A stretch of DNA of 64,000 nucleotides from Zhouia amylolytica (GTDB taxonomy: Bacteria > Bacteroidota > Bacteroidia > Flavobacteriales > Flavobacteriaceae). Below are positions 10,104-42,216 of this stretch, one piece after another; the stretch's first letter is position 1; each line of letters begins with the position of its first letter. The notes under the pieces are model-generated. The model searched no databases and was not told where the DNA came from. It was given only the letters and a program-made list of their open reading frames with translations. The position numbers and the translations under genes were made by a program. Location of the stretch: contig NZ_FPAG01000004.1 of assembly GCF_900116365.1 (NCBI RefSeq), positions 259,935 to 323,934 on the forward strand, written 5' to 3'.

Positions 10104-10559
10104 ATGAGCGGAACACTGAACAAAGTAATGTTGATTGGACATTTGGGAGATGAGGTTAAAATGACTTATTTCGATGGAGGAAATTGTATAGGTCGTTTTC
10201 CGTTAGCAACAAACGAATCATATACTAACAGGCAAACCGGTGAGCGTGTAACCTCTACCGAGTGGCATAATATAGTGGTAAGAAATAAGGCAGCTGAAAT
10301 CTGCGAAAAATACCTTACCAAAGGGGATAAAATTTATGTTGAAGGAAGAATTAAGAACCGTCAATGGCAGGGTGAAGATGGACAAACCCGTTATACAACG
10401 GAGATACAAGTAACTGATTTCACATTTTTATCTGCCAAGAAAGAAGAAGGAGGAATGCAGCAATCATCTGCATCTCAACCGCAACAAAGGCAAGATCACA
10501 AACCTCAGTCTAATCCGGTTGCTCAAGAACCAGAACCAGACGACGACTTGCCATTTTAA
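10104..10559 (+). CDS. ssb: Single-stranded DNA-binding protein
   Basis: 151-residue SSB: the OB fold occupies about 1-110 (MSGTLNKVMLIGHLGDEVKM, TEWHNIVVRNKAAEICEKYL, GDKIYVEGRIKNRQW), then a Gln-rich linker and the acidic tip DDDLPF, which recruits replication and repair enzymes. It follows mutY by 45 bases. A TAATTTTG box at 10076-10083 suggests an internal promoter as well. Confidence 0.96.
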   Translation: MSGTLNKVMLIGHLGDEVKMTYFDGGNCIGRFPLATNESYTNRQTGERVTSTEWHNIVVRNKAAEICEKYLTKGDKIYVEGRIKNRQWQGEDGQTRYTTEIQVTDFTFLSAKKEEGGMQQSSASQPQQRQDHKPQSNPVAQEPEPDDDLPF

Positions 10560-32530: not shown

Positions 32531-32827
32531 ATGAAAAAAATCGTTCTAACAATCGCAATAATCTTAGGTGGTCTAACTGCACAAGCATTTACTCCGGCAG
32601 CTAATCAAAGCAAAATTATTAAGATTGCGCAGGAAGAGTATAAAGAAATCGAAGTTTCTAAATTACCGACTGCGGTAACTGATGCTGTTCAAAAAGATTT
32701 TGCAGGTGCCAAGATTTCAAAAGCTTATGTAAATGAAAAAGGGGAGTATAAATTAGAGATTAGCAAGGATGGTGCTGAAAAAACTTTGTACGCTGACAAA
32801 GATGGAAACTGGATTAAAAAACAGTAA
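32531..32827 (+). CDS. PepSY-like secreted protein, copy 1
   Basis: 98 residues: signal peptide (MKKIVLTIAIILGGLTAQAF), then one PepSY-like unit (EIEVSKLPTAVTDAVQKDF, ISKAYVNEKGEYKLEISKDG, YADKDGNWIKK). The family (BLIP-like PepSY fold) is periplasmic and may bind or inhibit partners. The next gene is a close paralogue 56 bases on. A sigma-54-like sequence lies about 50 bases upstream. Confidence 0.85.
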   Translation: MKKIVLTIAIILGGLTAQAFTPAANQSKIIKIAQEEYKEIEVSKLPTAVTDAVQKDFAGAKISKAYVNEKGEYKLEISKDGAEKTLYADKDGNWIKKQ

Positions 32828-32883: not shown

Positions 32884-33192
32884 ATGATGAAAAAGTTAGC
32901 AGTCGTTACAGCAATTACCGTTGGAAGCTTTTCAACTTTTGCGGCCACTCCAGTAATATTTCACGATGGAGTAATGGAGGATGTTATAAGAGCACAGGAA
33001 GAGTTTACTGAAATTGAGGTTTCAAAACTACCTGCTGCAATCACTAAGGCATTGGGTAAAGATTACCCTGGCGCTAGCATTGATAAAGCATACGTAAATG
33101 AAAACGAAGAGTACAAGTTAGACGTGAGTCATAATGATGACGACCTCATTTTGTATGCCAATAAAACCGGTAATTGGATTGAAAAGGATTAA
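32884..33192 (+). CDS. PepSY-like secreted protein, copy 2
   Basis: 102 residues: signal peptide to about residue 20, then the same unit as copy 1 (EEFTEIEVSKLPAAITKALG, IDKAYVNENEEYKLDVS, YANKTGNWIEKD). A tandem duplicate of the preceding gene. ATG at 32884 and 32887 are both possible. It is followed by a terminator and then the sigma-54 response regulator. Confidence 0.85.
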   Translation: MMKKLAVVTAITVGSFSTFAATPVIFHDGVMEDVIRAQEEFTEIEVSKLPAAITKALGKDYPGASIDKAYVNENEEYKLDVSHNDDDLILYANKTGNWIEKD

Positions 33193-33357: not shown

Positions 33358-34692
33358 ATGATATCAATACTATTAGTTGAAGATGACGTTAGCTTTTCAG
33401 TGATGCTTGAACGTTTTTTGAAAAAGAAAAATTATCAGGTTCAAATTGCTCATTCACTGGAGAAGGCTTATGGTATGTTGAAAAGAGCAAAATTTGATTT
33501 GATATTTACGGATCTGAGGTTGCCAGATGGAAATGGGTTAGAGCTACTGGAAAAGGTCAGAGAGGACATTCCTTCTTTACCAATTATCATGATGACAGGA
33601 TATGCTGAGGTACCTTCTGCAGTTAAAGCAATGAAACTAGGTGCCTTTGATTATATATCAAAACCCTTTAACCAGGAAGAGGTGCTTAATGTTATTAATA
33701 ATGCCGTTAATAGTGGAGGACAGTCTTTTGCACACCCTAAGGTGAAAAACAAACCGGATGAGGAAATCGTAGAAAAGTCTTCATTTGTTGAAGGTGTTAG
33801 TGCTGCCTCAAAAAAGTTGAATGAATTTGTAAGCCTGGTAGCACCTACAGATATGTCGGTGTTAATTACCGGAGAAAGCGGTACCGGTAAAGAGGTAGTA
33901 GCCAAATCGATTCATAATTATAGTCATCGAAAGAATGAGCCGTTTATAGCAGTTGATTGTGGTGCAATTCCAAAAGAAATCGCTGCCAGTGAATTTTTCG
34001 GACATGTAAAGGGTTCTTTTACAGGAGCGGTAACTGATAAATCTGGTCATTTTGAAGCGGCTAATGGAGGAACACTTTTTTTAGATGAGGTGGGCAATCT
34101 CTCGTATGAAAATCAAGTACAGCTTCTAAGGGCCTTACAAGAACGAAAAATAAAGCCGATAGGAAGTAATAAAGAAATAGAAGTTGATATTCGCTTAATA
34201 ACTGCAACCAATGAAGATCTACAGGAAGCCGTTGACCGCGGTGATTTTAGGGAGGATTTATATCATCGATTGAATGAATTTTCAATTAGTGTACCCAGGT
34301 TATCCGATCGTACCGAAGATTTACCAATATTTGCCGACTTCTTTCTTGAGCGTTCGAATGAACAACTGAATAAAAAGATTATTGGTTTTACCGATGAAAC
34401 CATAGAAATGTTTCAAGATTACCGATGGCCGGGTAATTTAAGGGAGTTTTCGAATGTAATAAAGAGAGCCGTTTTGTTAGCACAAAATGACTTTATTACT
34501 CCTGAAGTATTACCGTCGGTATTTACTCAAATAGAACCAAAGGAAGTTAGATTTTCTACCAAGGAACACGAAAAAGAATTGATTATTAGAGCCTTAAAGG
34601 AAGCCGCGAACAATAAAACTCAGGCCGCAAAATTATTAAAAATCACTCGAAAGACTTTATACAATAAGCTCAAGGAGTATGATATCCATTAA
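33358..34692 (+). CDS. NtrC-type sigma-54 response regulator
   Basis: 444 residues: receiver domain with phosphoacceptor Asp52 (FTDLRLPDG) and Lys102; sigma-54 AAA+ domain with Walker A GESGTGKE (172-179), the sigma-54 contact loop as GSFTGA (219-224, usually GAFTGA) and LFLDEVGNL; Fis-type helix-turn-helix at the end (NKTQAAKLLKITRKTLYNKL). When phosphorylated it would open sigma-54 promoters. It is convergent with two hybrid histidine kinases, whose nearer gene overlaps its end by 23 bases, making them the likely partners. Confidence 0.95.
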   Translation: MISILLVEDDVSFSVMLERFLKKKNYQVQIAHSLEKAYGMLKRAKFDLIFTDLRLPDGNGLELLEKVREDIPSLPIIMMTGYAEVPSAVKAMKLGAFDYISKPFNQEEVLNVINNAVNSGGQSFAHPKVKNKPDEEIVEKSSFVEGVSAASKKLNEFVSLVAPTDMSVLITGESGTGKEVVAKSIHNYSHRKNEPFIAVDCGAIPKEIAASEFFGHVKGSFTGAVTDKSGHFEAANGGTLFLDEVGNLSYENQVQLLRALQERKIKPIGSNKEIEVDIRLITATNEDLQEAVDRGDFREDLYHRLNEFSISVPRLSDRTEDLPIFADFFLERSNEQLNKKIIGFTDETIEMFQDYRWPGNLREFSNVIKRAVLLAQNDFITPEVLPSVFTQIEPKEVRFSTKEHEKELIIRALKEAANNKTQAAKLLKITRKTLYNKLKEYDIH

Positions 34693-37156
34693 TGAATTTG
34701 TTTAATTCTTTGGTTACCTTATGAATATGATTTTTTAAGGATTTCAATGTTTCCTGTATCGTATTCGAATTAAAACTATCCATGTTTTCTATTAATTCTA
34801 ACTCATGAACGACCCCGTTTGCATCGAGTTGTTTAAACATTGTAAGCATTTTGTGGCTTGTAGCTTTAAGTCCTTCAATATTGCGGTTCAGATAATCTGT
34901 ATTTAATTCCTCTAAATTCTTTTTGGTGTCTTTTAAAAAAATCTTCAAGACTTCTTTTAGCGCCAGGTCGTCATTTACAAATGACCTTAAGCTTTTAAGG
35001 TTTACTATTTTCGTATTGTAGTTAGGTTCGTCCTTGTGTATATAAGTGTAATTATCCTTCAAGTCTCTGCTGAATAGAGTGGTTATTTGTTGTAGGAGTT
35101 TTTCGGGTGTAAATGGTTTAAAAATCACTTCTGAAAAGCCATTTGAAGTGTAGAAGGATTGGTCTATATCTTTACGACCTGTAATGGCAATAATAGGTTG
35201 ACCCTTGTATGCTTTTACGTCATTTTTTAAAATCTCAACAAATCTGAATCCATTCATTTTTGGGAGTTGAATATCGGTAATAATCAAGTCGAACTCTTGA
35301 TGATTAATAATATTAATGGCCTCGTCACCATCTTTACAGGTATAGACTTCGCATTGATTTGACACAAGGGTTTCGGTGATAAGCTTACGTAATGTTTCAT
35401 CATCATCAATCACTACAGCCTTCAGTTTAATATTTGGAAATGGAGTAGTTTGGTCGAATTCTTTTTTAGGTTCGGTAACCTGCTGTTTTTTAGTAAATTT
35501 AACAGGGACACTTAATTTAAAACAGCTTCCTTTACCCGTTTCGCTGGTAAACACTAAATCTCCATTCAATAAATGAGCTAACTTTTTTGAAATAGTTAAG
35601 CCTAGGCCATACCCATCCTTCTTTTTATTAATATCATCATCAACCTGGGTAAATTCACTAAAGATTAAATGTTGCTTTTCTTTTTTAATACCTACCCCGG
35701 TATCTTGTACTTCTATGGTGAGTCTTGAATCTCCATCAGCAAGATCTTTTGAGGTGTATGCTTTTATGGTTATTGAGCCTTCGTCAGTAAATTTATAAGC
35801 ATTTCCAATGAGGTTGTTAAGGATTTGCTTAATACGATAGGGGTCGCTAATGATATTTCTTTTGAGTGATTGGTCAATATCCAAAATGAGGGATATATCT
35901 TTTTTTGGGTATTGTTGTTGAATATTTTGGGAGCTTTCTACAATAGTTGATTTCAAATTAAAGGAAACCAGGTCTAAGGTTATTTTTCCGGTTTCCAGTT
36001 TCGAGTAATCAAGTAAATCTTCTACCAAATGATTCATATAGGTAGATGCATTTTTGATTTTATTAATATAGTGCAATCCTTTTTCTTTATTTCCCAGGGA
36101 CTTTTGTAATAATTCCCCATATCCAACAATCGTACTTAAAGGGGATCTGAGATCGTGACTAACCATATTGACTAATTGTTCCCTGGTGTTTGCAAGCAAT
36201 TGTGCCTTTCTGGTAGTCTTTTCAAGTTGTTTTCTATAGCGTTGACTTTTCCAGAAGTCATTAAGTATTAAAACGGAGAATATTATAATGAGGGCAATGC
36301 CTATGACTGCTGCAAAAGTTATGATTTTTTTACTTCGATTGAGTGCCACTTTTCTTTGTTGACTAATTTCACTGGCATATAGAAGGACCTCATTTTCTAT
36401 GGTGGATAATATTTTTCTAATTTGTTGAGAGATCAATAAGTCGTTGGCTATTAGTTCATTCTCTTTTTGGATTATAGATGCTTGTTGTTTTGATGAACTA
36501 GTTTGCAGTTCTTGAAGTGCTTGGGTCGAGGCTCTGAATATGGAGTCAAGTGTTTTTTCATTGATCTCATTATTCGAATCTCGAGGCGTATTTTCATTTA
36601 GGTAAGTAATGTAATTAATGAGCGCACTTCTGGTTCTGGAATCCAGACTTTCCGGGTCACTTACAAAGTCTTTTAAGGTTAATCTTCCAAGTGAAGACTC
36701 CATTGTTCTCAGCTTATCGATGGTTCTTAAAATAATTGTTTCGGTGGTATCCTGAAGTTTTAATGTTTTTAAGCTTTGGATATTGCTTTCTTTTTTTTCA
36801 ATGAGCAGGGAAATACTATCGAGCAGGTGGTATTGTTCTTCGGTACTCAATAATCTTTTCAAGGTGTCGATTTCAATCAATAAACTATCGTTCATGGATT
36901 TGTATTCGTCAAAAGGAACCCAGGACTTTGATTGAATAGCTGCTCTGGCCAAGCCTTCATTTTCATACATTAAGCTTAGTACCTTTCCAACATGCAAAAT
37001 TTTATTTTGATCAGAAATATTGTCTTTTTGTAATTGGGTATAAGATTCAATTTCAGCAAAAACGAAATGACCAACTACAATAGAGAGTATTCCGAGTACT
37101 ATGTAGCTAATGAGTACCTTAAGCGTAATTTTACCTTTAGAAAAATCCATTTTCAA
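34670..37156 (-). CDS. Hybrid histidine kinase with receiver and HPt domains
   Basis: 828 residues. A membrane helix (about 11-33) precedes a helical sensor region to about 275, then a second membrane helix (277-299). HisKA has His334 in MVSHDLRSP; the ATPase region has the N, G1 (DTGVGIKK) and G2 (GYGLGL) boxes; the receiver has Asp628 (IITDIQLP) and Lys680; the last domain has the HPt histidine His768 (ATSHKMLTMFKQL). This is a full phosphorelay on one chain, expected to pass phosphate to the convergent sigma-54 regulator. A paralogue lies upstream on the same strand. Confidence 0.95.
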   Translation of the reverse strand: MKMDFSKGKITLKVLISYIVLGILSIVVGHFVFAEIESYTQLQKDNISDQNKILHVGKVLSLMYENEGLARAAIQSKSWVPFDEYKSMNDSLLIEIDTLKRLLSTEEQYHLLDSISLLIEKKESNIQSLKTLKLQDTTETIILRTIDKLRTMESSLGRLTLKDFVSDPESLDSRTRSALINYITYLNENTPRDSNNEINEKTLDSIFRASTQALQELQTSSSKQQASIIQKENELIANDLLISQQIRKILSTIENEVLLYASEISQQRKVALNRSKKIITFAAVIGIALIIIFSVLILNDFWKSQRYRKQLEKTTRKAQLLANTREQLVNMVSHDLRSPLSTIVGYGELLQKSLGNKEKGLHYINKIKNASTYMNHLVEDLLDYSKLETGKITLDLVSFNLKSTIVESSQNIQQQYPKKDISLILDIDQSLKRNIISDPYRIKQILNNLIGNAYKFTDEGSITIKAYTSKDLADGDSRLTIEVQDTGVGIKKEKQHLIFSEFTQVDDDINKKKDGYGLGLTISKKLAHLLNGDLVFTSETGKGSCFKLSVPVKFTKKQQVTEPKKEFDQTTPFPNIKLKAVVIDDDETLRKLITETLVSNQCEVYTCKDGDEAINIINHQEFDLIITDIQLPKMNGFRFVEILKNDVKAYKGQPIIAITGRKDIDQSFYTSNGFSEVIFKPFTPEKLLQQITTLFSRDLKDNYTYIHKDEPNYNTKIVNLKSLRSFVNDDLALKEVLKIFLKDTKKNLEELNTDYLNRNIEGLKATSHKMLTMFKQLDANGVVHELELIENMDSFNSNTIQETLKSLKNHIHKVTKELNKFINGYHTP

Positions 37157-37272: not shown

Positions 37273-37818
37273 TTAAGCAATTTTAAGTTTAAGATCCTCC
37301 ACGATCTCCTCGATGTGTTTATTTAAGATGAAGACAATGTTTTTCAAAATAGTTTCTTCATATGTTTTTGTGGTTTCGAGTTGTGAGAGTATAGGAATTA
37401 CCTGATAAGCCTCTATTTGTTTAAACATACCCAGCATTTTGTGACTGATCTCGTTAATGCCTTCAATATTCTTCTCTTTGACATACTTCGCTAAAAGTTC
37501 GGCATTTTTATGCGAATCTTCAATGAAGAGGGATAATATATTCTTTAAAGAATCATCATTGGAGATATAGCGTTCTAATGTTTGGATGCTATAGGTTTCA
37601 CTGGTGGAGTTTAAAGATACAGGTTTAATAGCGGCCGTTCTTTTAACCTTATGAACCGGAAATAATCCTTTTACGGTTTTTAGTAATGCTTCCGGGGTAA
37701 AGGGTTTAAAAATAACTTCTGAAAATCCTTTTGAAAGATAATGTTCCTTGTCGAAATCTTTTCTTCCTGTTAATGCAATTACCGGTTCTCCATTATAGCC
37801 ATCAATTCTGTTTAAGGT
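37273..37818 (-). pseudogene. Detached receiver end and HPt domain of the second hybrid kinase
   Basis: Continuing the frame of the upstream kinase past its TAA (37819-37821) gives 181 codons without a stop, ending at TAA 37273-37275. It reads GEPVIALTGRKDFD, GFSEVIFKPFTPEALLKTV and NEISHKMLGMFKQI, matching the C-terminus of the neighbouring paralogue (IIAITGRKDIDQ, VIFKPFTPEKL, TSHKMLTMFKQL). The whole frame from 39720 is 816 codons, close to 828 residues in the paralogue. No start codon with a plausible context lies at its beginning, so it is probably not translated. Confidence 0.9.
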
Positions 37819-39720
37819 TTACATAATATCAAAACCGCTCATATGAGGTATTTGGATGTCAGTTGTAATAAAGTCAAACGATGAATTGTTTATGGCCTTT
37901 AAGGCTTCGTCTCCACTCTTAAAACTCTTAACTTTTATTCCTGCAGTATTAAAAATTTCTTCAATCAGGATTCTTAGAGGATTGTCGTCTTCAATAACAA
38001 TGGCTTTAAGGTTACTTTTTTGAGTTTTGGAGATTGGTTTATTTGCCTCGTTATTTATAAAAATGGATTCAGGCACCTTCTTTTCCGATAGGCTTACAGG
38101 AATTTTAACGGTAAAGATGCTTCCAAAATTTTCCTGACTTTCAAAAGAAAGTTCCCCTTGTAGAATTTCTACTAATTTTTTGGTGATTGTAAGTCCGAGA
38201 CCAAACCCATTTTGAGTTACTTCATCTTGTTCTTCAATTTGCGTAAACTCATTGAATATTAAATCATGCTTTTCTTTTTTAATACCAACTCCTGAGTCTT
38301 TAACTGTTATTATTATTTCATTTAAATCGTTTATATAGGCATTGATTTTCACAAAACCTTCTTCGGTATATTTAAAAGCATTGCTGATAAGATTATTTAG
38401 TATTTGACGAATCCGATGTGAATCGCTGATGATATTTTGGTTTAAGGCATTATCTATGTTAATACCAAGTTGAATGGGTTTGTGAGAATGCTGTTGCTTA
38501 ACGCTTTGACTAACTTCATTTATTAAAAGCGAAAGGTTAAAATCATTGTTTTTGGGTTTTATTTTCCCCGCTTCAAGTTTAGAGTAGTCTAACAGGTCTT
38601 CAACGAGCCTTATCATATAGCTTGAGGCATTTTTTATTTTATCAATATAAGAATCGCGTTTGGTTTTGGTTGTGCTGGTCTGTAAGAGATCACTGTACCC
38701 TAAAATGTTGCTTAGAGGGGATCTTAAATCGTGACTTACCATCTTAATGAGGTGTTCTCTACTTTTAAGCAATGTATTAGTATAACTGCTTGATAATTCA
38801 AGTTCTTTTTTAAACTTCTGGATTTTCAGAAAATCATTTAGGATGATTATTATAAACAGTATAATCATAATAACGCCTATTATGGAAGCAGACACAAGCC
38901 TGTTCTGACTTTTTTTAATAGCGGTTTTTCTGGAAGAGCTTACATTGGTATATTCCTGAATGGTGTCTCTCTCTATTTTTGATAAGATTTCTTGAATTTG
39001 TCGGGAGATCAATAGATCTTTTGCCAGTAATTTATTTTTTTCGATTGATGCCGAAGATAGCTGATCACCTGAATTTAGTTTGAGCTTTTTTAAAATGTTG
39101 GTTGAAGCATTTAAAATAGCATTAATCGATTGCTTGTTGAGGTTTTCGCTTTGTGATGTTAGTTGATTTAAAGTAGCGATGTATTCTTCCAGGGCTTTGC
39201 GTGTTTCGGGGTGTAAAGCATTTGGGTTCGAAACAAAATCCTTTAAGGAGTAATCTTCCAGAGAGGATTTCATTTGGCTCAATTGTAGAATGGCATCATC
39301 AACAGATTCGTATGTTTCATTGTTGGTTTTTAATGTCTTAATAGCTGAGATGTTTTCTTCTTTCTGTGCGATTAAATGTTTTACACTATCCAAAAGTTTA
39401 ATTTGTTGTTCGGAGGAGTATACAACTTTTAAGGAATCGATTTCAGTAAACAGTTCGTCGTTATTAAGGAGGTATTGTTTATAGGAGCTTTGAGCGTTCG
39501 ACTGAATGGTATATTTCGAAACACTTTCGTTTTTATACATTAAGCTTATAATGTTTCCTATTTTAAAAATTTTATTTTGATCTGCAGTATTGTTTTCTGT
39601 GAGCTTCAGATACTTTTGAAATTCTGCATAAAAAATCACCCCAACAGTGAATGAAAGAAGGCACAGTAAAATATAACTTATGAATGCTTTTTGAGGAATT
39701 TTACTTATTAGTAGATTCAT
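37819..39720 (-). CDS. Hybrid histidine kinase truncated by an in-frame TAA within its receiver
   Basis: 633 codons up to the TAA. Paralogue of the downstream kinase: membrane helices near 12-32 and 276-297, HisKA His330 (MVSHDLRSP), ATPase boxes (SGVGIKKEKH, GFGLGL), and the start of a receiver with Asp621 (TTDIQIPHMSGFDIM). The receiver's conserved Lys and the whole HPt domain lie after the stop. The stop aligns near a Glu of the paralogue, so a GAA to TAA change is the simplest explanation. The kinase core is intact and could still work on the intact neighbour. Confidence 0.88.
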   Translation of the reverse strand: MNLLISKIPQKAFISYILLCLLSFTVGVIFYAEFQKYLKLTENNTADQNKIFKIGNIISLMYKNESVSKYTIQSNAQSSYKQYLLNNDELFTEIDSLKVVYSSEQQIKLLDSVKHLIAQKEENISAIKTLKTNNETYESVDDAILQLSQMKSSLEDYSLKDFVSNPNALHPETRKALEEYIATLNQLTSQSENLNKQSINAILNASTNILKKLKLNSGDQLSSASIEKNKLLAKDLLISRQIQEILSKIERDTIQEYTNVSSSRKTAIKKSQNRLVSASIIGVIMIILFIIIILNDFLKIQKFKKELELSSSYTNTLLKSREHLIKMVSHDLRSPLSNILGYSDLLQTSTTKTKRDSYIDKIKNASSYMIRLVEDLLDYSKLEAGKIKPKNNDFNLSLLINEVSQSVKQQHSHKPIQLGINIDNALNQNIISDSHRIRQILNNLISNAFKYTEEGFVKINAYINDLNEIIITVKDSGVGIKKEKHDLIFNEFTQIEEQDEVTQNGFGLGLTITKKLVEILQGELSFESQENFGSIFTVKIPVSLSEKKVPESIFINNEANKPISKTQKSNLKAIVIEDDNPLRILIEEIFNTAGIKVKSFKSGDEALKAINNSSFDFITTDIQIPHMSGFDIM

Positions 39721-39795: not shown

Positions 39796-39904
39796 CAACA
39801 TCTCGTAAGGGGTGCTTATATCTTCTATACATTTAAAAGAAGACAAGCTGAGATCATACCCATTGAACCTAGAACAGGTAATGCTGTTTAGGAACAAGAT
39901 GCTA
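39795..39904 (+). promoter_or_regulatory. TPP (thi-box) riboswitch
   Basis: The conserved elements appear in order: GGGGTGC (39809-39815), GCTGAGA (39847-39853), ACCCATTGAACCT (39858-39870), AGGTAATGC (39877-39885), then GGAACAAGATGCT. The ends (CAACATCTCGT and ACAAGATGCT) pair to close stem P1. This is the sensor of thiamine pyrophosphate; it stands about 130 bases before a TonB receptor start, so it should lower receptor expression when TPP is plentiful. CCCCTT at 40007-40012 could pair with AAGGGG of the riboswitch as part of a switch, unproven. Confidence 0.93.
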
Positions 39905-40032
39905 CAATAAGGCTCATTAGTGATGTATTAGTTTCTTAAAAGTAGCATAGAAATTTATTTTTTGCAAGAAAAATGTAATCAAATCGTTTTTAAACCTCAG
40001 AATAATCCCCTTTTATTCGTAAAATACTATGA

Positions 40033-42216
40033 ATGAAACAGTTATTTAGTTGTGTTGTATTGCTTTTTTTATGTGCCTTATCAACATTTGCTCAAACCAA
40101 TAAAGTAAAGGATTCGACTTTACAAGAAGATGAAACCATTTCATTGGATGAAGTTTTGGTTTCAGCTATTCGAGTAACATCAAAGACTCCGGTTACTTTT
40201 TCCAATATGAGTAAAAAAGACATAAAGAAACGAAACCTTGGACAGGATATTCCTGTTTTAATGAATTACCTGCCTTCTGTGGTTACTACTACAGACGCTG
40301 GTGCAGGTGTAGGCTATACAGGTATTCGCGTACGTGGAAGTGATGCTACCAGAGTTAATGTTACTATTAACGGGATTCCTTATAATGATGCCGAATCTCA
40401 GGGAACTTTTTGGGTTAATATGCCTGATTTTGCTTCATCTGTTGAAAATCTTCAGTTGCAAAGGGGAGTTGGAACTTCAACCAATGGTGCTGGAGCTTTC
40501 GGAGCTAGTTTAAATCTTTTGACAGATGCTATTTCTGAGGAGAGTTATGGAGAAATTTCAAGCTCTGTTGGGAGTTTTAATACACAAAAACATAATATTA
40601 AGTTTAGTACAGGGAAGTTGAATGATCATGTTGAGATCTCAGGTCGATTGTCTTTAATTGAGTCTGATGGCTACATTGACAGAGCTTCATCTGATCTTAA
40701 ATCTTATTTTCTGCAGGGAGCTTATGTTGACGAGAGCACCCTCATTAAAGCTTTGGTTTTTGGAGGGCATGAGATCACTTATCAGGCGTGGAATGGAATT
40801 GATAGTGAAATGTTGGAATCGAACCGACGTTTCAATACTGCCGGGATGTATACAGATGAAGATGGGAATGTTCAGTTCTACGATAATGAGGTGGATGATT
40901 ATAAGCAGGATCATGCGCAATTGCATTGGAACGAAAAGTGGAATAGTAATTGGAATACTAATTTCGCATTACATTATACATATGGTAGAGGATATTTTGA
41001 GCAGTATAGGGAAGATGAATCTTTTGAGGATTATAATCTGGAGCCAATCACCACGTCTGATGGAGAAATAAGTTCTACAGACCTGATAAGACGAAGATGG
41101 TTAGATAATGATTTCTATGGAACTACATTCTCTGCAAATTATCAGGATGATAATTTCGATCTTATCTTAGGAGGGGCATGGAATAAATATGAAGGTGATC
41201 ATTTTGGAGAGGTTATATGGGCAAGATATGCTTCCAATAGTGAAATCCGCGATCGCTATTATGACGATAATTCTTTAAAAACGGATTTTAATATTTATGG
41301 GAAAGTCAGTTTTATGTTGACTAATAAGTTGAGTCTGTTTGGTGACTTGCAATATAGGAGGGTTACGTATAAAGCGAATGGCGAGGATACCGGGTTGGTA
41401 GATGATGAATTTGACTTTTTCAACCCTAAAGCGGGGATCACTTATAATGTGAATAATCAAAATAGTATATATTTTTCATACGCTAGAGCTAACAGAGAGC
41501 CCAATAGAAATGACTATGAGAATGGAAGTCCGAAACCGGAAAAACTGAATGATTTTGAACTGGGATGGAGGTATGGATCCAAAGCTGTTAAGTGGAATCT
41601 GAACGCTTATTATATGCGTTACAAAGATCAATTGGTGTTAACCGGGGAGTTAAATGATGTGGGTGCTCCACTAAGAGAAAATATTGGTGATAGTTACCGA
41701 TTAGGGGTTGAGGCTGATGCAACCATTGTTTTTAACAGTAAGTTTATCGTACGCCCAAATGTATCCTTGAGCACAAATAAAAATATAGATTTTTATTTTG
41801 AGAGAGATGGAAGTTTAAGAGATTTAGGTAATACTACCATAGCCTACTCTCCAAGCTTTGTAGGATCTAATATTTTTACATATATTCCGGTTAATAACCT
41901 CCAGTTTTCATTGTTGTCTAAATATGTATCTGAGCAATATATGGGGAATATTGATTCAGATGGCTCAAAGCTTTCAAGTTATTTTGTGAATGATTTTAAT
42001 GTTCAATATGAAATTCAGACAAACACCTTCATTGATTCAATAATTCTTACAGGTTTGGTGAATAATATTTTTGATAAAAAATACGTTTCAAACGGATATT
42101 TCTATACATATGATGATAACTGGACAGACCCTAATCAGGTAACTACCATTGAAGGGGCAGGTTATTATCCTCAAGCCGGTATAAACTTTCTGATAGGAGC
42201 TACGTTTATGTTTTAG
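40033..42216 (+). CDS. TonB-dependent receptor under TPP riboswitch control, probable thiamine receptor
   Basis: 727 residues: signal peptide ending ALSTFAQ, no carboxypeptidase-like extension, TonB-box region, plug (DIPVLMNYLPSVVTTTDAGA, IRVRGSDATRVNVTINGIPYND, GVGTSTNGAGAFGASLNLLT) and a barrel ending INFLIGATFMF. Bacteroidetes genomes have TPP-regulated outer-membrane receptors for thiamine, and the riboswitch here places it in that group. A six-codon frame at ATG 40029 overlaps its start. The likely inner-membrane partner is the PnuC/PnuT gene at 29.6 kb. Confidence 0.92.
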   Translation: MKQLFSCVVLLFLCALSTFAQTNKVKDSTLQEDETISLDEVLVSAIRVTSKTPVTFSNMSKKDIKKRNLGQDIPVLMNYLPSVVTTTDAGAGVGYTGIRVRGSDATRVNVTINGIPYNDAESQGTFWVNMPDFASSVENLQLQRGVGTSTNGAGAFGASLNLLTDAISEESYGEISSSVGSFNTQKHNIKFSTGKLNDHVEISGRLSLIESDGYIDRASSDLKSYFLQGAYVDESTLIKALVFGGHEITYQAWNGIDSEMLESNRRFNTAGMYTDEDGNVQFYDNEVDDYKQDHAQLHWNEKWNSNWNTNFALHYTYGRGYFEQYREDESFEDYNLEPITTSDGEISSTDLIRRRWLDNDFYGTTFSANYQDDNFDLILGGAWNKYEGDHFGEVIWARYASNSEIRDRYYDDNSLKTDFNIYGKVSFMLTNKLSLFGDLQYRRVTYKANGEDTGLVDDEFDFFNPKAGITYNVNNQNSIYFSYARANREPNRNDYENGSPKPEKLNDFELGWRYGSKAVKWNLNAYYMRYKDQLVLTGELNDVGAPLRENIGDSYRLGVEADATIVFNSKFIVRPNVSLSTNKNIDFYFERDGSLRDLGNTTIAYSPSFVGSNIFTYIPVNNLQFSLLSKYVSEQYMGNIDSDGSKLSSYFVNDFNVQYEIQTNTFIDSIILTGLVNNIFDKKYVSNGYFYTYDDNWTDPNQVTTIEGAGYYPQAGINFLIGATFMF

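Follow-up and report, generated by a model that had tools for sequence, protein, structure and literature searches.

The window analyzed here, i.e., the whole 64,000-nucleotide stretch of Zhouia amylolytica DNA, carries two tandem hybrid kinase genes on its minus strand, an intact copy A and an interrupted copy B, together with a gene for a sigma-54-activating response regulator whose open reading frame (ORF) overlaps the end of copy A by 23 bases (Table 1). The minus-strand frame of copy B (39720–37273) spans 816 codons: 633 sense codons, a TAA at 37821–37819 that is the sole internal stop, 181 further sense codons, and the final stop. This recovers exactly the frame and the single interruption described in the initial annotation. 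We examined the stop column in an alignment of 55 rows, 45 of them distinct: a sense codon stands there in both paralogue A and the copy B orthologue from a second genome of the genus (G001), and the flanks on both sides of the stop align with each, in agreement with the match to the intact paralogue reported earlier. Beyond the TAA, reading resumes without a shift, and the lesion is thus of the substitution type rather than a homopolymer indel.

Table 1 Features of the tandem kinase locus, in window positions.
Feature	Coordinates	Strand	Support
Truncated hybrid kinase B, 633-aa ORF (sensor, HisKA, HATPase, first receiver half)	37819..39720	-	ORF, Pfam, same start as same-genus orthologue
HisKA, residues 321-385	38566..38760	-	Pfam PF00512, E 2e-16
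HATPase_c, residues 433-542	38095..38424	-	Pfam PF02518, E 1.7e-24
Receiver, split by the stop	37672..38001	-	Pfam PF00072 halves: E 5.8e-12 before, 6e-05 (below cut-off) after
Single in-frame internal stop, TAA	37819..37821	-	Amino acid in 54/54 other aligned rows
181 open codons and original stop (second receiver half, linker, HPt)	37273..37818	-	Frame, Pfam, model
Linker and HPt of copy B, as compared between species	37276-37665	-	Versus end of L055:11109-11651
HPt four-helix domain, invariant His at 37443-37441	37276..37605	-	AlphaFold, Foldseek/VIA, Pfam, alignment
Intact paralogue A, same architecture as B	34670..37156	-	ORF, Pfam, alignment; 116-base gap downstream of B
Sigma-54-activating NtrC-type response regulator	33358..34692	+	Pfam; convergent with A

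Ahead of the stop, copy B encodes a sensor in which residues 10–35 and 271–303 form hydrophobic stretches, HisKA and HATPase_c domains recognized by Pfam, and a receiver up to the end of its first half, and the earlier claim that sensor, HisKA, and ATPase are spared therefore holds. The same annotation had the stop remove the conserved Lys of the receiver and the whole HPt domain. Both do lie after it, yet this understates the loss, as the entire second half of the receiver goes with them: the PF00072 profile is matched at positions 2–60 before the stop and 70–110 after it, with the second half scoring 23.6 bits against a cut-off of 30.2. The Asp motif of the receiver precedes the stop, while the Thr motif, the Lys motif, and the HPt His follow it. 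The predicted 633-aa product lacks a complete receiver (Asp, Thr, and Lys), which exists only in the DNA frame, and the HPt domain with its phospho-accepting His, which is encoded after the stop. Since the whole second receiver half is lost, no working receiver should remain in the product of copy B.

The HPt of copy B is weak by sequence and, judging from its predicted structure, clear by fold. Pfam reported an Hpt domain at E ≤ 1 in 26 of 45 family members (best E 2.3e-07), with copy B at E 0.013, below the cut-off, and the HPt His is conserved in all 45 distinct sequences. An AlphaFold model of the copy B tail reached a mean pLDDT of 89.6, and its top Foldseek matches were HPt proteins, none of them under E 0.001 (best 1.9e-03). 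A structural comparison with VIA placed HptB (7c1i) first, with Z 16.1 and an rmsd of 1.8 over 108 aligned residues, a value that exceeds the roughly Z 13 attainable by helical bundles. ArcB and BarA/GacS are tripartite (“unorthodox”) sensor kinases with the order HisKA–HATPase–receiver–HPt, which the copy B frame shares. The tail model aligned, in addition, with the HPt of ArcB (1a0b, Z 12.9, rmsd 3.2, 110 residues) and that of BarA (3iqt, Z 11.7, rmsd 2.9, 110 residues), both Z values being within the reach of helical bundles. Unlike ArcB and BarA/GacS, the flavobacterial kinase comes with a convergent sigma-54 regulator and forms a tandem pair in this genus, with copy B cut within its receiver. 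Among the titles returned by our searches, no paper on this flavobacterial kinase family was found.

Next, we evaluated how the kinase is distributed among relatives. At E ≤ 1e-100, 397 genomes of the family, apparently Flavobacteriaceae, yielded 117 matches in 115 genomes, and copy B of the window was the only one with an internal stop. With at most two candidates scored per genome, two kinase copies were found solely in the two genomes of this genus. A first homologue set comprised 23 of 46 loci (the long matches L056–L078), the other 23, 20–35% identical and mostly partial, being left out; from the 117 matches, the 28 best outside the genus (L104–L131) were aligned along with the genus’s own four. 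Several of these relatives could be linked through identical proteins to named contigs, which points to Flavobacteriaceae as the family; among them, the L106 protein is identical to that of Pustulibacterium marinum and the L111 protein to that of Robertkochia solimangrovi. In G001, copy B has an intact orthologue of 817 aa in conserved gene order. In a tree rooted on L074, copies A and B of both genomes grouped together with a support of 100, and the stem of B was longer than that of A, both before the stop position (0.88 vs 0.47) and after it (1.20 vs 0.36). By these stem lengths, B is the copy that diverged more after the duplication.

The sigma-54 regulator was convergent with and downstream of the kinase at 50 of 51 family loci, in 48 cases no more than 150 bases away from the kinase match, and the one exception was a metagenome-assembled genome (MAG) of Capnocytophaga. 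Repeated sequences were retained in this count; the 51 loci represent 41 distinct proteins and 10 repeats, without which the figure is 40 of 41. Given this near-constant arrangement, we infer that kinase and regulator belong to one pathway, with the regulator as the presumed target of the relay. Beside the regulator, two related proteins of ~100 aa are encoded on the plus strand (32531–32827 and 32884–33192), in an order kept in G001. The first has a weak PepSY-like Pfam match below the cut-off, the second none, and both are possible targets of the kinase pathway. A scan for sigma-54 promoters returned 4 one-mismatch sites, with 3.0 expected by chance.

Within the family, the tail of this kinase is normally its less conserved part. 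After removal of repeated sequences, tail identity was below kinase identity in all 820 pairs formed by 41 sequences (tail/kinase ratio: mean 0.53, maximum 0.91), and HPt identity was below kinase identity in 20 of 20 disjoint pairs. Copy B departs from this pattern, with a ratio of 1.01 between the two species. Its sensor was 60% identical, its kinase core 79%, its receiver 81–82%, its linker 80%, and its HPt 79%. Copy A compared between the same two species resembles the relatives (kinase 0.72, HPt 0.51, linker 0.23). This comparison is descriptive rather than a formal test, the pairs being non-independent and copy B a single case. A nucleotide element or an opposite-strand gene was rejected as the source of the tail conservation, since third positions are about as diverged after the stop as before it, indicating a constraint acting on the protein. 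Gene conversion from copy A was likewise rejected, the B and A tails being only 36% identical. On these identities, the nonsense mutation thus seems to have cost copy B a part that was among the most tightly conserved, a loss more easily reconciled with a recent accident or a base error than with slow decay.

The age of the stop can be bounded from the codons that follow it. Compared with G001, the 181 post-stop codons show 37 differences over both lineages, with no gap and no second stop, and an amino acid identity of 80%. Chance was rejected as an explanation for so long an open frame: the alignment is gapless with 37 of 181 positions differing, while a neutral model predicts ~29 stop gains per substitution per site. 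Under the same model, these codons would on average acquire 2.9 new stops and 38 amino acid changes at 0.1 substitutions per site, and the chance of no further stop would be 6%. At codons for the same residue, third positions were identical at a frequency of 0.542 after the stop and 0.514 before it, with 0.44 expected at saturation; dS (NG86 or YN00) was mostly undefined through saturation, and no ratios were drawn. Since third positions are near saturation between the species while the tail is still open, the stop appears to be young relative to the species split. Polarized changes after the stop numbered 8 v 5, 5 v 7, and 3 v 3 on the window and G001 branches for three outgroup choices, and maximum-likelihood branch lengths for copy B (window v G001) were 0.159 v 0.099 after the stop and 0.393 v 0.161 before it. 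By these measures, the tail shows no special acceleration on the window branch and no mark of long relaxed selection.

The sensor (38791–39720, minus strand) changed about twice as fast in copy B of the window as in that of G001, with 37 v 19, 40 v 19, and 32 v 15 polarized changes (p 0.022, 0.009, and 0.019 for the three outgroup choices). No comparable asymmetry was seen in copy A before the stop position (branches 0.209 v 0.262).

The stop is probably a nonsense mutation that arose recently in the sequenced strain, striking the genus-specific tandem duplicate B of a widespread flavobacterial kinase–receiver–HPt protein, which would make it an ordinary kind of gene loss. The idea of a recent loss, raised at first annotation, gains support from the intact syntenic orthologue, the lack of any other lesion, the lack of post-stop acceleration, and the short age bound. 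Further disruptions in close relatives would have spoken against it; in G001, the one same-genus genome examined, copy B is intact. Specifically, the kinase would have been duplicated in tandem within the genus, and copy B later hit by one nonsense mutation. Drawing on known two-component biochemistry for the subsequent steps, the 633-aa product would still be inserted in the membrane, dimerize, and autophosphorylate. Its half receiver would be expected neither to fold nor to accept phosphate, and with no HPt either, copy B would have no His–Asp–His relay of its own. Copy A, complete and adjoining the convergent sigma-54 regulator, would then be the only full relay left of the pair, while truncated B could be inert, interfere with A through mixed dimers, or donate phosphate to the receiver of A in trans. 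Two points stand against a recent nonsense mutation: a strong constraint on exactly the lost part is equally what continued production of that part, or a base error at the stop, would lead one to expect, and the faster change of the sensor in the window copy is left unaccounted for.

The main rival, which we regard as unlikely, is a single-base error of sequencing or assembly, in which case copy B would be intact in the organism. Copy B does resemble a gene under strong constraint except at one base, and one wrong base is possible in a draft of 17 contigs. However, the substitution-type lesion, with its unshifted frame, argues against an error of the homopolymer kind, and a good draft usually contains more genuine nonsense mutations than consensus errors. 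We further surveyed the surroundings of the locus (about 224 kb) using the 106 ORFs of G001 that are matched in the window genome at 55% identity or more; copy B was the one clear mid-gene interruption. Three of the 106 were flagged, namely copy B, an ORF lying antisense to a shorter ORF of the window (10104–10559), and one of 211 residues with a stop at residue 47; the reverse survey flagged 1 of 107, a partial match of 55%. With so few flagged ORFs, the assembly appears clean here, which favors a real mutation without proving it. The third flagged ORF (G001:C1:864202-864837, compared with G000:C10:349333-349857) has its stop near the start, and may merely begin at a different codon. A second broken regulator, suspected from an entry reading “1 TAG”, was rejected, the gene being an intact 441-aa ORF. 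The case serves mainly as a warning and as a natural experiment on a small scale, one stop in a kinase otherwise under constraint being nothing out of the ordinary.

The constraint on the tail may itself bear on how the pair works, as the tail of B was unusually constrained after duplication, in a family whose tails usually vary more than the kinase. This suggests a possible division of labor between tandem tripartite kinases through their HPt domains. One guess is that the HPt of copy B is held by a shared or new phosphotransfer partner. In the more specific version, a long shot in our estimation, this tail would serve in the genus as a shared phosphotransfer hub for B, for A, and perhaps for other kinases. 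Such a hub would explain why the linker and HPt of B are as tight as the kinase core while the HPt of A drifts as in its relatives, and it would make the window strain a natural hub knock-out.

A highly improbable alternative is that the truncated kinase has been kept because it is useful, as a modulator of A that acts through mixed dimers or by phosphorylating the A receiver, without a relay of its own. The HisKA and ATPase domains are complete in the 633-aa ORF, and the kinase core is unrelaxed on the window branch (7 v 13, 5 v 10, and 2 v 9 changes, window v G001). As for cross-phosphorylation, a published account reports receiver exchange among related Pseudomonas hybrid kinases: those of 3 of 9 donor kinases functioned in GacS, and such receivers could reportedly be phosphorylated by the donor kinases (PMC8175716). 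However, A and B are only about 44–46% identical, and a young stop leaves too little time for a modulator constraint to appear, so that these data fit a plain loss as well. Least probable is readthrough of the stop, or a separate start of the tail, by which the receiver end and HPt would still be made: the 181 open codons and the frozen tail are as this would have them, but the stop is unique to the window copy (0 of the 116 other family matches), not conserved as a programmed readthrough site would be, and the RNA after it folds little better than shuffles (z −1.0; 37 of 200 shuffles matched or bettered it). Nor could a restart at ATG, GTG, or TTG yield a separate HPt protein with its His, since the first such in-frame codon after the stop, at 37437, lies beyond that residue; the earlier suggestion that the two pieces are still used thus finds no footing here.

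A recent nonsense mutation in copy B would resemble known cases of loss in some respects. Young bacterial nonsense pseudogenes likewise show one lesion, a conserved frame, and an intact orthologue in a sister species, but the part lost from copy B was not already drifting, being the most conserved tail relative to its kinase among the pairs compared. Spontaneous mutations in Gac/Rsm genes have been reported for P. fluorescens F113 and P. brassicacearum NFM421 (PMC7695008). The Gac pathway likewise has a tripartite sensor kinase at its head. The Gac mutants are variants described with a phenotype, whereas copy B is known from one genome sequence alone.

Finally, we scanned the surrounding DNA for regulatory elements. 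Between 36900 and 40040, predicted promoters and terminators were about as frequent as in shuffled sequences (11 vs 13.1 and 2 vs 1.6, respectively), and at the gathering score Rfam gave no match in the whole window. Below that score, a TPP riboswitch (THI element) was matched at 39798–39911 on the plus strand (42.7 bits against a gathering score of 54.3, E 3.6e-07), and the same match recurs at the G001 locus (34.5 bits, E 3.9e-05), with 272 of 334 bases around it identical between the two species. The match lies upstream of a TonB-dependent receptor gene at 40033 (Pfam barrel and plug), whose product may import a thiamine compound.
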